DNA of 64,000 nucleotides from Geothrix sp. SG200 (lineage in GTDB: Bacteria > Acidobacteriota > Holophagae > Holophagales > Holophagaceae). Shown here piece by piece: positions 13,429-55,659 of the stretch. The stretch is taken from the NCBI RefSeq assembly GCF_022808935.1, contig NZ_JAKZFR010000006.1:186001-250000 (forward strand), written 5' to 3'. A program made the position numbers and the translations under genes. The notes beneath the pieces were generated by a model, which worked only from the letters and a program-made list of their open reading frames with translations, was not told the origin of the DNA and ran no database searches. The first letter of the stretch is position 1. The number at the start of each line of letters is the position of its first letter.

Positions 13429-13540
13429 CGGGAAGAGTTTCTCTTTCCTCCCACGGGGCGACCGTTCACGCCAGCCCCTTCCGGCCCGCGATCCTAGTGG
13501 CCGAGACATATTGGGCACCCTTCGGGGTGCCCTTTTGTTG
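13429..13540 (+). ncRNA. Candidate small structured RNA, unknown family
   Basis: Between the candidate promoter and a strong terminator lies about 108 bases that fold locally. A hairpin GGGAAGAG-TTT-CTCTTTCC spans 13430-13448 with one G-U pair, a second stem GGGGC/GCCCC spans 13455-13478, and the third is the terminator stem. No start codon with a ribosome site is convincing. It does not match 4.5S, 6S, tmRNA or tRNA by eye. It could instead be the long 3' end of the malic enzyme mRNA, 60 bases upstream. Confidence 0.38.
13513..13540 (+). terminator. Rho-independent terminator with TTCG tetraloop
   Basis: GGGCACCC-TTCG-GGGTGCCC (13513-13532) is a perfect eight-pair stem with a stable TTCG loop, followed by TTTTGTT. 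It ends transcription coming from the malic enzyme gene and/or the candidate small RNA. Confidence 0.88.
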
Positions 13541-13763
13541 TCCGGGGGTTCCCCCCGCAACGCATGCGTTGCAGGGATCTATGGGCTCGCTGCGCGAACA
13601 CCCCCGGGCCCCCGCGGCAAATCCCGGCGTAGCCGGGCTTTGCCTTGCCCCATCGTCCGGGGGTTCCCCCCGCAACGCATGCGTTGCAGGGATCTATGGG
13701 TTCGCTGCGCGCATACCCCCGGGCCCCCGCGGCAAATCCCGGCGCAACCGGGCTTTGCCTTAT
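13541..13763. repeat. Two tandem copies of a 115-bp palindromic repeat
   Basis: Copy one starts at 13541 and copy two at 13656, a period of 115 bases. Each begins TCCGGGGGTTCCCC, contains the 16-base perfect palindrome GCAACGCATGCGTTGC (13557-13572 and 13672-13687), a CGCTGCGCG segment and a terminal CCCGGC/GCCGGG stem followed by TTTGCCTT. A third, inverted copy lies at 23833-23941. Short open frames run through it on both strands but have no ribosome sites. It is a dispersed repeat with repeated DNA hairpins, not a CRISPR array. Confidence 0.85.
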
Positions 13764-13821
13764 TCGAATGTCCGCAGGCCCCTGCGCGCAAGCTCGTCGG
13801 GGTTTCATCTCCAGGGGTCCC

Positions 13822-13870
13822 TTGACAATCGGGCGAATCTACACAAAATTGTCTACACCATCTTGTGTAG
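13822..13870 (+). promoter_or_regulatory. Promoter with overlapping BlaI-type operator
   Basis: TTGACA (13822-13827) and CAAAAT (13844-13849) are 16 bases apart and form a good promoter. The perfect inverted repeat CTACACAA (13839-13846) / TTGTGTAG (13863-13870) overlaps the -10 and start region, and another TACA half-site lies between its arms. TACA/TGTA half-sites are what BlaI/MecI repressors bind, so the downstream repressor probably controls its own operon from here. Confidence 0.7.
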
Positions 13871-13877
13871 GATTCCC

Positions 13878-14249
13878 ATGAAGCGACCGAACAAGCCGAC
13901 CGACGTGGAGCTCAAGTTCCTGCGGGTCCTCTGGGACCTGGGGCCGTCCACCGTGAAGGAGGTGCATGCCCGCCTGAACCTCACGGAGGAATACGCCTAC
14001 ACCGGCGTCCTGCGGATGCTCCAGGTGATGCTGGACAAGGGCCTGGTGACCCGGGACGAGCGCCAGCGCAGCCATGTCTATGCCCCAGCCCACAGCCGGG
14101 CGGCCATGGAGGGGGGGCTGGTGTCTGATCTGAGCGAGCGCCTCTTCGGAGGATCCGCCGCCGCGCTGGTGCTCGCGGCCCTCCGCTCCGGCCCCGTCAG
14201 TCCCGAGGAAAAGGCCCGCATCCGCGAGCTGCTGGGGAGGGAGGAGTGA
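13878..14249 (+). CDS. BlaI/MecI/CopY family transcriptional repressor
   Basis: This 123-residue winged-helix protein has the family layout: PTDVELKFLRVLWDLGPSTVKEVHARL, a recognition helix region EYAYTGVLRMLQVMLDKGLVTRDE, then the wing RSHVYAPAHS and a C-terminal dimerisation helix set. Such repressors are released when the partner M56 peptidase triggers their cleavage. The start at 13878 is chosen because it follows the operator and begins the family's N-terminus; a longer frame through the repeats is rejected. Its stop overlaps the start of the M56 gene (TGATG), and an extended GGAGGGAGGAG precedes that junction. Confidence 0.92.
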   Translation: MKRPNKPTDVELKFLRVLWDLGPSTVKEVHARLNLTEEYAYTGVLRMLQVMLDKGLVTRDERQRSHVYAPAHSRAAMEGGLVSDLSERLFGGSAAALVLAALRSGPVSPEEKARIRELLGREE

Positions 14250-16000
14250 TGGCTGCCATCGTTCAGATCCTGGGATGGGCTCTCGTCCACGCCCTCTGGC
14301 AGGACGGTCTGCTGGCGGCCCTGGCGGCCTTGGGTGGCCTCCTTCTCCGGGGCCGGGCACGGCACGCCATGAATGGCCTGATCCTGGCCCTCTGCCTGGG
14401 GCTGCCTGCGGCCACGGCCTGGCATTTCCACCGTCCGGCCCTGCTGGGGGCGGGCCCGGTCCAGGTGGCCGAGGCCGCGCAGGGTGGCCCGGCGGCCTTC
14501 CTGCCCCGGGCGGACAGGGCCTCCAGGCCCCTGCTGGCGCGGCTGGAGGCCGCGCTCCAGCCCCGTCTGCCCGCCCTGGTGGTTCTCTGGGCGGTGGGAG
14601 CGAGCCTCATGGCCCTCCGCCTGGGCGGCGGGTATGCCCTCAGCTTGAGCTGGAAGCGGAGGGGCGTACCGGCCCCCCGGGACTGGCAGGACTCGCTCGA
14701 TGACCTGGCCCGGCGCCTGGGAATCCTGCGCAAGGTGCGTCTTCTCCTGGTGGGGCATGGCCAAACGCCCCAATCGCCTGTGGCCCTCGGGCTCTGGAAG
14801 CCGGTGGTGCTCCTTCCGGCAACCCTGCTCACAGGCCTTCCGCCCGGCTTCCTGGAGGCGCTCCTGGCCCATGAATTGGCCCACGTGCGCCGCCTGGACT
14901 ACCTGGCCAACCTCCTCCAGGGCATCGCAGAGACCCTCCTCTTCTTCCATCCCGCCATCTGGTGGCTTTCGGCCAGGATCCGGGCCGAACGCGAGGAGCT
15001 CTCCGACGACCTGGCGGCCGAGATGCTTGGCGATCCGCGGCGCCTGGCCTTGGCCCTCAACGCGCTGGACGACCTCCAGCGACCCCTTCCCCACCTGTTG
15101 TTCCCGGCCCTCGCGGCCCGAGGAGGACATCTGCTCACCCGAATCGAACGTCTGCTCTCCCCGAAACCTGTCAGGGGTCCCCTCGGAGGCGCCCTGACCT
15201 TCCTGCTGCTCCCCGGCCTGGCCCTCGCCTTGCGGGCCGCGGCTCCGGCGTTCCCACCCATCGGGGCTCCGGCCACCGTCATCGCCCAGCTGGACGTCCT
15301 GGCCGCTCGGGAGGGGCTGGACCCCCAGCTGCTCCGCAGCATGGCCTGGGTGGAGAGTGGCTTCAACGCCAAGGCCAAGAGCACCATGGGTGCCACGGGG
15401 ATGCTCCAGGTCATGCCCGAAACCGCCCGGAAATTCGGTGCGACGGACCTGGAGGATCCCGCCCAGGTGATGGCCGCAGGCGCGAAGTACCTGCGCTTCC
15501 TGCTGGACCGGTACCAGGGGGACGTCCAGAAGGCGGTGGCGGCCTACAACTGCGGGGAGAAGGCCCTGGACGAGGGGCGCATCACCGAGGAGGCCACCCG
15601 CTACCGGAGCCTGGTGATGGATGTGCTGGCCGCGAAGGCCGTGCAGCCGGAGGCCCCGCTGGCCGAGGGCGAAGTGCAGGGTGTGATCCGGCGGGGAGGC
15701 GGAGGCCAGATCACGCTCCAAATCCGTGCGAGCAGCCGCGGCAGCCTGAAACTGGACCTGCTGCCCGCGGAAGGCGCCAAGGCGTTGGGCACCATCCAGA
15801 TCGGGGAGAAGCGCCAGGACGGGACCTACGCCGTGGGGCCCTGGGAGGAGGTCAGGCCCAGGATCCTGGTGGACGCTTCGAAGGCCGGGGCGAGCCTGGT
15901 GATCCGTGGCGAGGAGCCCGGCACGGGCTGGCGCGGAGACACCCGAGTGCTGCTGGACGCCCCCTGGAAGACCTTCACCTTCCAGATGAAGAAGCCATGA
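14249..16000 (+). CDS. BlaR1-type M56 peptidase fused to a lytic transglycosylase domain
   Basis: This 583-residue membrane protein has four likely membrane helices (about 5-33, 41-58, 107-130, 313-332). The M56 zinc peptidase motif is HELAH at 208-212, with EREELSDD at 248-254 as the likely third-ligand region. Where BlaR1 carries a penicillin-sensing domain, this protein carries an SLT-type lytic transglycosylase domain: IAQLDVLAAREGLDPQLLRS, WVESGFN with catalytic E369, STMGATGMLQVMPETA and AVAAYNCG. A C-terminal beta-rich domain of about 110 residues follows. It is co-translated with the BlaI repressor. The fusion suggests sensing of peptidoglycan rather than of a beta-lactam; that is inference. 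Confidence 0.88.
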   Translation: MAAIVQILGWALVHALWQDGLLAALAALGGLLLRGRARHAMNGLILALCLGLPAATAWHFHRPALLGAGPVQVAEAAQGGPAAFLPRADRASRPLLARLEAALQPRLPALVVLWAVGASLMALRLGGGYALSLSWKRRGVPAPRDWQDSLDDLARRLGILRKVRLLLVGHGQTPQSPVALGLWKPVVLLPATLLTGLPPGFLEALLAHELAHVRRLDYLANLLQGIAETLLFFHPAIWWLSARIRAEREELSDDLAAEMLGDPRRLALALNALDDLQRPLPHLLFPALAARGGHLLTRIERLLSPKPVRGPLGGALTFLLLPGLALALRAAAPAFPPIGAPATVIAQLDVLAAREGLDPQLLRSMAWVESGFNAKAKSTMGATGMLQVMPETARKFGATDLEDPAQVMAAGAKYLRFLLDRYQGDVQKAVAAYNCGEKALDEGRITEEATRYRSLVMDVLAAKAVQPEAPLAEGEVQGVIRRGGGGQITLQIRASSRGSLKLDLLPAEGAKALGTIQIGEKRQDGTYAVGPWEEVRPRILVDASKAGASLVIRGEEPGTGWRGDTRVLLDAPWKTFTFQMKKP

Positions 16001-16012
16001 GGCTTTCCCGTA

Positions 16013-16047
16013 CGCAGAACGGCCCGGCATCGCCGGGCCGTTCTGCG
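16013..16047. terminator. Long hairpin between convergent genes, no U-tract
   Basis: A perfect 16-pair inverted repeat (arms 16013-16028 and 16032-16047, loop ATC) lies between the M56 fusion gene and the 68-residue minus-strand gene. Neither side has a T-run, so it may act as a two-way mRNA end or transcription barrier rather than a classical terminator. Confidence 0.6.
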
Positions 16048-16059
16048 CAGGATCGGGCT

Positions 16060-16266
16060 TTAGGCTGCGAAGGTCCGATGGCTGCGGTGCATGACCTCGG
16101 CCTCGAGCTCGGCCTCGAGGGCCTGCACCTGGCGAAGGACGGCGAGGCCGCGCGGGGAGGCGCTCATCTTGGACTCGAGCTGGTTGAAGACCTCGTGCAG
16201 CCGCTCGGCGGTGGTCCAGAAGGCGGGGTTGTGCTGTCGAACGCTGGCATCCATGTGCATGGCCAC
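16060..16266 (-). CDS. Small helical protein, 68 residues, unknown
   Basis: The product is short and mostly helical: AFWTTAERLHEVFNQLESKM, then SASPRGLAVLRQVQALEAELEAEV and a basic end MHRSHRTFAA. No signal peptide or membrane segment is seen. GGAG sits five bases before the ATG at 16266. I do not recognise the family. Upstream is an unusually AT-rich region crowded with inverted repeats, including a CRP-type site, which suggests tight regulation. The alternative is an ATG at 16260 with two fewer residues. Confidence 0.55.
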   Translation of the reverse strand: MAMHMDASVRQHNPAFWTTAERLHEVFNQLESKMSASPRGLAVLRQVQALEAELEAEVMHRSHRTFAA

Positions 16267-16426
16267 TCCACTGCTTGCTGGACATCATCATCGTCTTTGA
16301 TGATTCCCAATGCTAGTGATAGACATCACAAGAAATGTCACGAGTTACGGACATTTTTGTCATGGTCGCCATGACAATTCCGGAAGCCCTTGAAAAACAT
16401 GACATTCAGGTTGTCAACGGGGCGGA
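16267..16426. promoter_or_regulatory. AT-rich control region with several inverted repeats
   Basis: This 160-base gap before the 68-residue gene holds four dyads: ATCATCA/TGATGAT (16284-16304), the CRP-type site GTGAT-AGAC-ATCAC (16316-16329), TGTCATGG-TCG-CCATGACA (16358-16376), and loose GACAT/ATGTC copies around them. The base composition is far lower in GC than the neighbours. It is most simply a multi-operator promoter region for the minus-strand gene. Confidence 0.55.
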
Positions 16427-54529: not shown

Positions 54530-55659
54530 GGCCAGACCCAGCTGCCGAGCGCCACAGGCCGCGCGGCGCCGGTCACCTCCGGCAGGTTCCCGGGCAGACC
54601 CAGGGCGCTGGCCGCGCCCAGGAGGGCCCAGCTCACGGCCTCCCGGGCGCCGGAGGGGAAGGCCGCGTCGTCTACGAGAGGCAGCGGCAGGCGCGAGGCC
54701 AGCTCCGCGCGAAGGCGGCCGTGCAGGGCCCCGCCGCCGCTCACCAGGCCGCGGGTATCCGGCGTGAACGGGGCCAGACGCGTCGCTTCGCGGGCCACGG
54801 CCTCGGCGCTGAAGGCGGCGAGCGTGGCCAAGCGATCCGCCATTGGAAGGGATTCCAGTCTCCCGGTTTCAGCCTCGAGCCAGGCGTCGCCGAAGACCTC
54901 CCGCCCGGTGGACTTGGGAGGCACCGCCTGGAAGTGCGGATGCGACAGCCACCGTTCCAGCAGGCCGGTGTGCACCGTTCCGGTGGCCGCGGCACCTCCG
55001 GGATCGAAGGCCTGGCCGAGCCAGCGCCGGGCCGCGAGGTCCAGGAGGGACATGCCCGGACCCGTGTCCCAGGCCTGGAGACGGTGGCCGTCCCAGTAGG
55101 CCAGGTTGGCGATGCCGCCCAGGTTCAGGGCCAGCCAGGGTTCGGGACCCCGCAGCCAACGCTCGGGCAGGGGCACCAGCGGAGCGCCCTGGCCGCCCAG
55201 GGCCATGTCGCGGCGGCGAAGGTCCCACACCACAGGGCATCCCAGTACCTCAGTCAGCACGTAGGGGTCCGCCAACTGGAGGGTGGCACCTTCCGCAGGC
55301 CGGTGTTGGACAGTCTGGCCGTGAAGGGAAGCCAGGTCGGGAACCAGGTTCAATCCGGCGCAGAGATCCGCCGCGGCACGGGCGTGGTGGTCCCCCAGGC
55401 GCCGCTGGAGGATGCAAAGCTCCGCGGGAGCCAGTCGGTTCGAGGCAGCTGCGAGGATTGCGGTTTTCAGTCCTTCGGAATAGGGTTCCGCCCGATGGCC
55501 CAGGAGGGCGCGGAAGGGCCGCCCGGCTTCGAAGCCCCTGGGGTCCACCTCCACCGCCGCCACATCCACGCCGTCGGCGCTGGTGCCGGACATGAGGCCC
55601 AGCACACGCCAGGGGCGGTCCTCCGGGAGCGGGATGCGGGAACGCATGATGCTGATCAT
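54526..55659 (-). CDS. anmK: Anhydro-N-acetylmuramic acid kinase
   Basis: The 377-residue product phosphorylates and opens 1,6-anhydroMurNAc recovered from the cell wall. It has VLGLMSGTSADGVDVAAVEV at the N-terminus, ASLHGQTVQHRP, LNLGGIANLAYWDG, AWDTGPGMSLLDLAARR and a C-terminal GLVSGGGALHGRLRAEL. The start could be ATG at 55659 or at 55647; neither has a strong ribosome site. With the M56-transglycosylase at 14 kb it points to peptidoglycan turnover, though murQ and nagZ are not in the window. Confidence 0.92.
   Translation of the reverse strand: MISIMRSRIPLPEDRPWRVLGLMSGTSADGVDVAAVEVDPRGFEAGRPFRALLGHRAEPYSEGLKTAILAAASNRLAPAELCILQRRLGDHHARAAADLCAGLNLVPDLASLHGQTVQHRPAEGATLQLADPYVLTEVLGCPVVWDLRRRDMALGGQGAPLVPLPERWLRGPEPWLALNLGGIANLAYWDGHRLQAWDTGPGMSLLDLAARRWLGQAFDPGGAAATGTVHTGLLERWLSHPHFQAVPPKSTGREVFGDAWLEAETGRLESLPMADRLATLAAFSAEAVAREATRLAPFTPDTRGLVSGGGALHGRLRAELASRLPLPLVDDAAFPSGAREAVSWALLGAASALGLPGNLPEVTGAARPVALGSWVWP

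Follow-up and report, generated by a model that had tools for sequence, protein, structure and literature searches.

An M56 receptor of Geothrix with a lytic transglycosylase domain in the position of the BlaR1 sensor, its BlaI operator and a predicted deacetylase target

The window analysed here, a stretch of 64,000 nucleotides from Geothrix sp. SG200, contains an operon for a BlaI-family repressor and an M56 metalloprotease whose outer part is a lytic transglycosylase (SLT) domain instead of a penicillin-binding domain. We consider the chances about even that these proteins form a circuit similar to BlaR1/BlaI in which glycan is read by the transglycosylase domain and whose output is more of the circuit itself together with, in certain species, a wall deacetylase. 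The order of the domains, their intact active sites, the predicted location of the SLT domain outside the cell, the conserved operator and the sharing of this operator with deacetylase genes are indicated by sequence comparisons and structural models. The initial annotation had proposed a BlaI-controlled operon in which the sensor of BlaR1 is exchanged for an SLT domain, and this proposal was upheld by Pfam matches above the cut-offs and by superpositions of AlphaFold models. The features of the operon, in window coordinates, are as follows:

13822..13849, plus strand: sigma-70-type promoter (promoter prediction), with TTGACA at 13822-13827, a 16-nt spacer and the -10-like CAAAAT at 13844-13849
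13839..13870, no strand: putative BlaI operator consisting of two overlapping 18-bp dyads, 13839-13856 and 13853-13870 (conservation)
13878..14249, plus strand: blaI-family repressor, 123 aa (Pfam PF03965)
14249..16000, plus strand: M56-SLT receptor of 583 aa, whose start codon shares bases with the stop codon of blaI
14567..15010, plus strand: core of the M56 protease domain, residues 107-254 (Pfam)
14870..14884, plus strand: HELAH zinc/catalytic motif, H208-H212 (invariance in orthologues)
15185..15241, plus strand: last transmembrane helix, residues 313-331 (positive charges before it, almost none after)
15251..15652, plus strand: SLT lytic transglycosylase domain, residues 335-468 (Pfam, fold match)
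15353..15355, plus strand: codon of the catalytic Glu369 (invariant in about 30 orthologues)
15671..15997, plus strand: C-terminal beta-sandwich, residues 475-583 (AlphaFold)
16015..16045, no strand: 14-bp perfect hairpin 3' of the operon, without a T run (raw sequence)

Architecture of the operon and its receptor

The two genes overlap as TGATG. The first encodes the winged-helix Penicillinase_R domain (PF03965) that characterizes BlaI/MecI repressors, with a score of 85.6 bits against the Pfam cut-off of 22.6, and its product is 77-97% identical among the Geothrix orthologues; the closest orthologue of the operon, in G025, is 89% identical. The hairpin that follows the operon has no entry in the computed list of terminators, and it likely marks the end of transcription between convergent genes. 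Beyond it lies a short reading frame of about 55-66 aa (...MDASVRQHNPAFWTTAERLHEVFNQLESKMSASPRGLAVLRQVQALEAELEAEVMHRSHRTFAA; 16060-16270, minus strand) that is convergent with the operon, and hence, by position, the operon has no further gene. The stretch that separates blaI from the malic enzyme gene contains, at 13540-13775, a nearly identical pair of direct repeats, each of about 115 bp (GGGGGTTCCCCCCGCAACGCATGCGTTGCAGGGATCTATGGG...). An anmK gene in the window had been suggested to provide a recycling context. Its signature (GLMSGTSADGVD) is indeed found near 55.6 kb (position 55600) on the minus strand, but this is 40 kb from the operon and anmK was not retained as part of its context.

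The receptor matched the M56 family (PF05569) with 69.6 bits and the SLT family (PF01464) with 81.8 bits, the curated Pfam cut-offs for these families being 31 and 21.3 bits, respectively. In an alignment of 29 members, the residues H208, E209, H212 and E249 were invariant, while position 210 of the HELAH motif, generally L, was F in three orthologues. The HEXXH motif and the third Glu of the M56 metalloprotease of BlaR1/MecR1 are thus both present, with E249 as the candidate third zinc ligand. An AlphaFold model of the receptor, built on 29 orthologues, had a mean pLDDT of 80.5, with low confidence in the linkers and in the outer loop that follows helix 2. Residues 8-293 of this model superposed on BlaR1 of Staphylococcus aureus (8exs) with a Z score of 19.1 over 249 residues and an rmsd of 3.9, which indicates the same transmembrane/protease architecture. 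The retention of the four-helix layout and of HELAH, which had been claimed earlier, is in agreement with this superposition and with the invariance of H208, E209 and H212, found at the expected positions in 29-30 orthologues.

Hydrophobic peaks were observed near residues 16-24, 48-52, 111-120 and 317-329 of the receptor, and positively charged residues concentrate in the presumed cytoplasmic loops, the mean number of K+R around the last helix being 3.3 before it and 0.3 after it. Based upon this positive-inside pattern, the SLT domain is predicted to be located outside. The initial annotation had likewise placed it there, naming an SLT domain that faces the cytoplasm as one of two results that would defeat its proposal; the charge pattern does not point to such an orientation.

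In fold searches with residues 335-468, the matches were to MltF, Slt, MltE and LtgA (Z scores of 14 to about 17, with 16.7 for MltF/Slt) and also to the catalytic domain of a Ralstonia chitinase; at the sequence level, the domain matched the Slt, MltC, MltD and MltF families and phage murein transglycosylases. The residues E369, G384, Q387, P390, Y433 and N434 were invariant in the 29-member alignment, and the GMLQVMP and AYN motifs are intact and largely invariant among the orthologues. The domain therefore possesses the catalytic Glu, the G-x-x-Q-x-x-P motif and the AYN motif of the family 1 lytic transglycosylases (SLT/GH23), such as Slt70, MltF, MltE and MltC, whose fold it also shares. 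In contrast to these enzymes, it forms one polypeptide with a signalling protease, whose helices hold it in place, and its enzymatic activity is predicted. The receptor is probably a membrane-anchored transglycosylase. E369 had been picked out earlier as the catalytic residue of an SLT domain standing where a penicillin-binding domain would be expected; it was found where it had been placed, invariant in 29-30 orthologues. No match to any transpeptidase or PBP family was obtained for the outer part of the receptor in Pfam, NCBIfam or fold searches, and the score of the receptor against the BlaR1 equivalog of NCBIfam was 39.5 bits, the cut-off being 400. The C-terminal beta domain that had also been described was recovered by AlphaFold, with a pLDDT of 89.6 when modelled alone; it gave only generic Ig/C2-like matches and no Foldseek hit below 0.001.

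The catalytic Glu and the substrate motifs would not have to be so strictly conserved if the SLT domain only tethered or positioned the receptor on the wall, with the trigger being either a muropeptide that acts on BlaI in the cytoplasm or a membrane stress perceived by the transmembrane part. Such an arrangement would fit with the direct binding of a peptidoglycan-derived dipeptide to BlaI/MecI in the Bacillus licheniformis system (PMC3305447) and with the existence in Mycobacterium tuberculosis of an M56 homologue of BlaR1 that has no BlaR1-like sensor (PMC9834060), but we consider it quite improbable.

Promoter and operator of the operon

The putative operator comprises the dyads CTACACAAAATTGTCTAC and CTACACCATCTTGTGTAG, which have CTAC (4 bp) in common and whose centres are 14 bp apart. 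Neither of them is a perfect palindrome, self-matches being seen at 12/18 and 14/18 positions, and two such dyad matches were present in 0 of 100 shuffled windows. The initial annotation had described a single perfect dyad overlapping the promoter. The overlap holds, as a conserved operator covers the -10 of the blaI promoter; the single wide dyad, however, was rejected in favour of two 18-bp dyads because the orthologues keep both of them, and the arms CTACACAA and TTGTGTAG, 16 bp apart, are the outer halves of this tandem. The element TTGAC[AG] together with the tandem dyads is kept in about 20 Geothrix species, whereas the flanking sequences have diverged. Upstream of the orthologues generally, TTGAC[AG] is found in nearly all cases, the exceptions being L031, L032 and the clade of L034-L036. 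Conserved dyads at the promoter of the repressor's own gene are characteristic of BlaI/MecI, and based upon them BlaI is predicted to autoregulate its operon. For two BlaI proteins of Clostridium thermocellum, it has been determined experimentally that they use paired sites for four protomers and control small regulons that include their own genes (PMC8457756).

Predicted regulon and distribution of the fusion

A scan of 14 Geothrix genomes for TACACAAnnTTGTGTA, allowing up to 2 mismatches, located this sequence at the blaI-m56-SLT promoter of every genome and just upstream of a gene for a secreted CE4 polysaccharide deacetylase in all six genomes with an orthologue of that gene (G002, G032, G025, G017, G019, and G037). 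The deacetylase site was first met in two closely related genomes and the remaining orthologues were then checked; apart from these, the scan gave a single site in G041 and, in G018, one repeated sequence. The dyads at the deacetylase promoters, one at each of them in Geothrix, mostly overlap or adjoin a TATACT-like -10. An orthologue of the deacetylase (72% or more) is present in 6 of the 21 Geothrix genomes that contain M56-SLT vs. 0 of the 26 that lack it (p about 0.005, with the kinship of the genomes ignored). In some species, the operator thus appears to control the CE4 deacetylase as well, and the cell-wall theme of the initial annotation gains support from this second predicted target.

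The CE4 domain (PF01522) of the deacetylase scored 65.9 bits (cut-off 23.1) and contains the FDDG and HxxxH motifs of this family. Its nearest solved relatives, which share these characteristics, are peptidoglycan GlcNAc deacetylases (4L1G, 5O6Y), from which it differs by its long C-terminal extension and by scores below the equivalog cut-offs, the best being 55 bits for the PgdA model vs. 400 required. As it matches deacetylase models of both the NodB/chitooligosaccharide and the peptidoglycan type, each below the cut-off, and as the Ralstonia chitinase domain has the SLT fold too, one may envisage that the polymer read by the SLT domain and deacetylated by the CE4 enzyme is not the wall of the cell itself but a GlcNAc polysaccharide of the capsule or the surroundings, such as a chitin-like polymer or an exopolysaccharide. 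This is, in our estimation, quite improbable, for the sequence matches of the SLT domain are to murein transglycosylase families and the operon consists of two genes only.

The deacetylase orthologue is absent from the window genome and from seven other operon-bearing Geothrix genomes of the scan, and in these eight no convincing second promoter target was recognized; relaxing the search pattern revealed no second operator in the window genome except for one match with 3 mismatches. No beta-lactamase or resistant PBP target was detected by the operator scan, which divergent sites could escape, and in the genus g5 (G059, G066) operators were found at the operon's own promoters only. A pure sensor would therefore control only itself in the window genome, and the SLT domain may combine the roles of sensor and effector. 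It is even conceivable, if unlikely, that the receptor is mainly an effector, viz. a self-regulated membrane-anchored lytic transglycosylase whose level is set by M56/BlaI, e.g., by homeostatic self-derepression, the deacetylase being an occasional accessory. The intact Glu369, GMLQVMP and AYN, which exceed the needs of a pure binding sensor, and the 8 of 14 scanned genomes with no recognized second target are in its favour, and the situation in the window genome keeps it alive. Nevertheless, the operator is shared with the deacetylase in two separate clades of M56-SLT, Geothrix having the deacetylase gene in trans and the genus g11 having it in cis, as would be expected of a signal receptor that governs a distinct output gene.

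The genus g11 belongs to the same family as Geothrix. At three of its loci (G069 contig 53; G069 contig 169, where the receptor is cut by the contig end; and G073 contig 150), a deacetylase that is 73-76% identical is divergently oriented from blaI-m56-SLT, while in G064 the deacetylase (60%) is on another contig than the receptor, under the same g11 operator TACATTnTTTATCGTAC. The g11 operator, TACATTTTTTATCGTAC and near-copies thereof, differs from that of Geothrix, and it is present both at the receptor promoters and at the separate G064 deacetylase promoter. The presumed recognition helix of BlaI also differs between the two groups (TGVLRMLQVM in Geothrix vs. TAVLKLMQTM in g11). As the operator has changed together with its target, these observations are hard to explain without regulation, and at the level of sequence g11 offers independent support for the deacetylase as a target.

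A domain search and phylogeny of M56-SLT fusions had been suggested. The search revealed them, with or without the beta-sandwich, in five Holophagaceae genera besides Geothrix, and three genomes from two other acidobacterial families (L173, L183, and L184) also have such fusions adjoining blaI. The SLT domains of the latter are of a distant subtype with the same catalytic motif (E about 1e-16 vs. 1e-33 to 1e-45 for free SLTs). In the M56 tree, the Holophagaceae fusions fall in two groups; an independent origin of the L173, L183 and L184 fusions was considered, but the trees are compatible with one origin as well as with several. In the orthologues L031-L033, the SLT domain and the C-terminal part are separated by an additional domain of some 100 residues.

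The window genome encodes five other M56 proteins which, like the receptor, adjoin blaI-family genes and have a variable outer C-terminus, their C-terminal domains and operator sequences being different from those described here. Three further M56 receptors with blaI-family genes form a cluster at another place on the contig of the window (L001-L003; G000:C7:47033-52805), each with a different, unassigned outer C-terminus and with TACACTTTTTATCGTA-type sequences upstream. In another case (L005; G000:C1:1103517), an M56 protease with a TonB C-terminal domain (M56-TonB_C) adjoins a blaI-family gene with a TACGAATCGGTTCGTA dyad.

Relation to known systems and proposed mechanism

The Geothrix system resembles BlaR1/BlaI and MecR1/MecI of staphylococci and bacilli in the cytoplasm-facing HEXXH of the M56 protease, the four-helix layout, the C-terminal outer domain, the adjoining BlaI repressor and the dyad operators at its own promoter. 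It differs from them in that the SLT domain and beta-sandwich stand in place of a class-D-like penicillin-binding sensor, the gene order is blaI and then the receptor, with the genes overlapping, and a deacetylase in some species, rather than a beta-lactamase or PBP2a, is the second target. An M56-BlaI pair devoid of the BlaR1-type penicillin sensor is also known from M. tuberculosis, but there the sensor is missing (PMC9834060), whereas in Geothrix a complete enzyme domain has taken its place. The relay corresponds to that of BlaR1/BlaI, while the sensor and the target are new; the receptor is not BlaR1 proper, but is built to work like one. A literature search, subscription papers aside, yielded no paper on an M56-SLT fusion or on a transglycosylase or deacetylase controlled by BlaI.

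In the glycan-reading circuit that we favour, BlaI on both dyads would repress its own operon until the SLT domain engages the glycan of peptidoglycan, or products that accumulate under wall attack. The signal would then travel via the last helix and the outer loop to the cytoplasmic M56 protease, which, by analogy with BlaR1, would remove BlaI. In BlaR1 itself, the membrane helices change once the outer domain is engaged, the M56 site becomes active, and BlaI is removed (PMC9834060). The output would be more receptor and, where its gene is present, the secreted CE4 deacetylase. The N-acetyl group of MurNAc takes part in the reaction catalysed by transglycosylases, and deacetylation of the glycan impedes lysozymes; in view of this chemistry, the deacetylase could both shield the wall and damp the signal. 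Deacetylated glycan would be a poorer substrate for transglycosylases and lysozymes, and a negative feedback would thereby close. The ligand, the cleavage of BlaI, the activity of the enzyme, peptidoglycan as the substrate of the deacetylase and this feedback are parts of the scheme that we infer. Its fullest form, a loop of wall homeostasis in which the receptor transglycosylase gauges the cleavability of the glycan (i.e., its acetylation), proteolysis of BlaI induces the deacetylase and the receptor is silenced, is put forward tentatively and is possible rather than probable. The main difficulty for the circuit as favoured here is the window genome, in which neither a deacetylase orthologue nor a second operator was found. 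In addition, each Geothrix deacetylase promoter has one dyad vs. the two needed by the two BlaI regulators studied in C. thermocellum (PMC8457756), and chitin-type glycans are also possible substrates for enzymes of the CE4 family and of the SLT fold.

BlaR1 and MecR1 are known as detectors of antibiotics. If the present proposal is correct, it would point to the M56/BlaI relay as a general modular platform for the monitoring of the cell wall, which, as suggested by the six M56 proteins with different outer parts in the window genome, may carry many sensors, and it would provide a testable route by which bacteria feel lytic activity on their own glycan.
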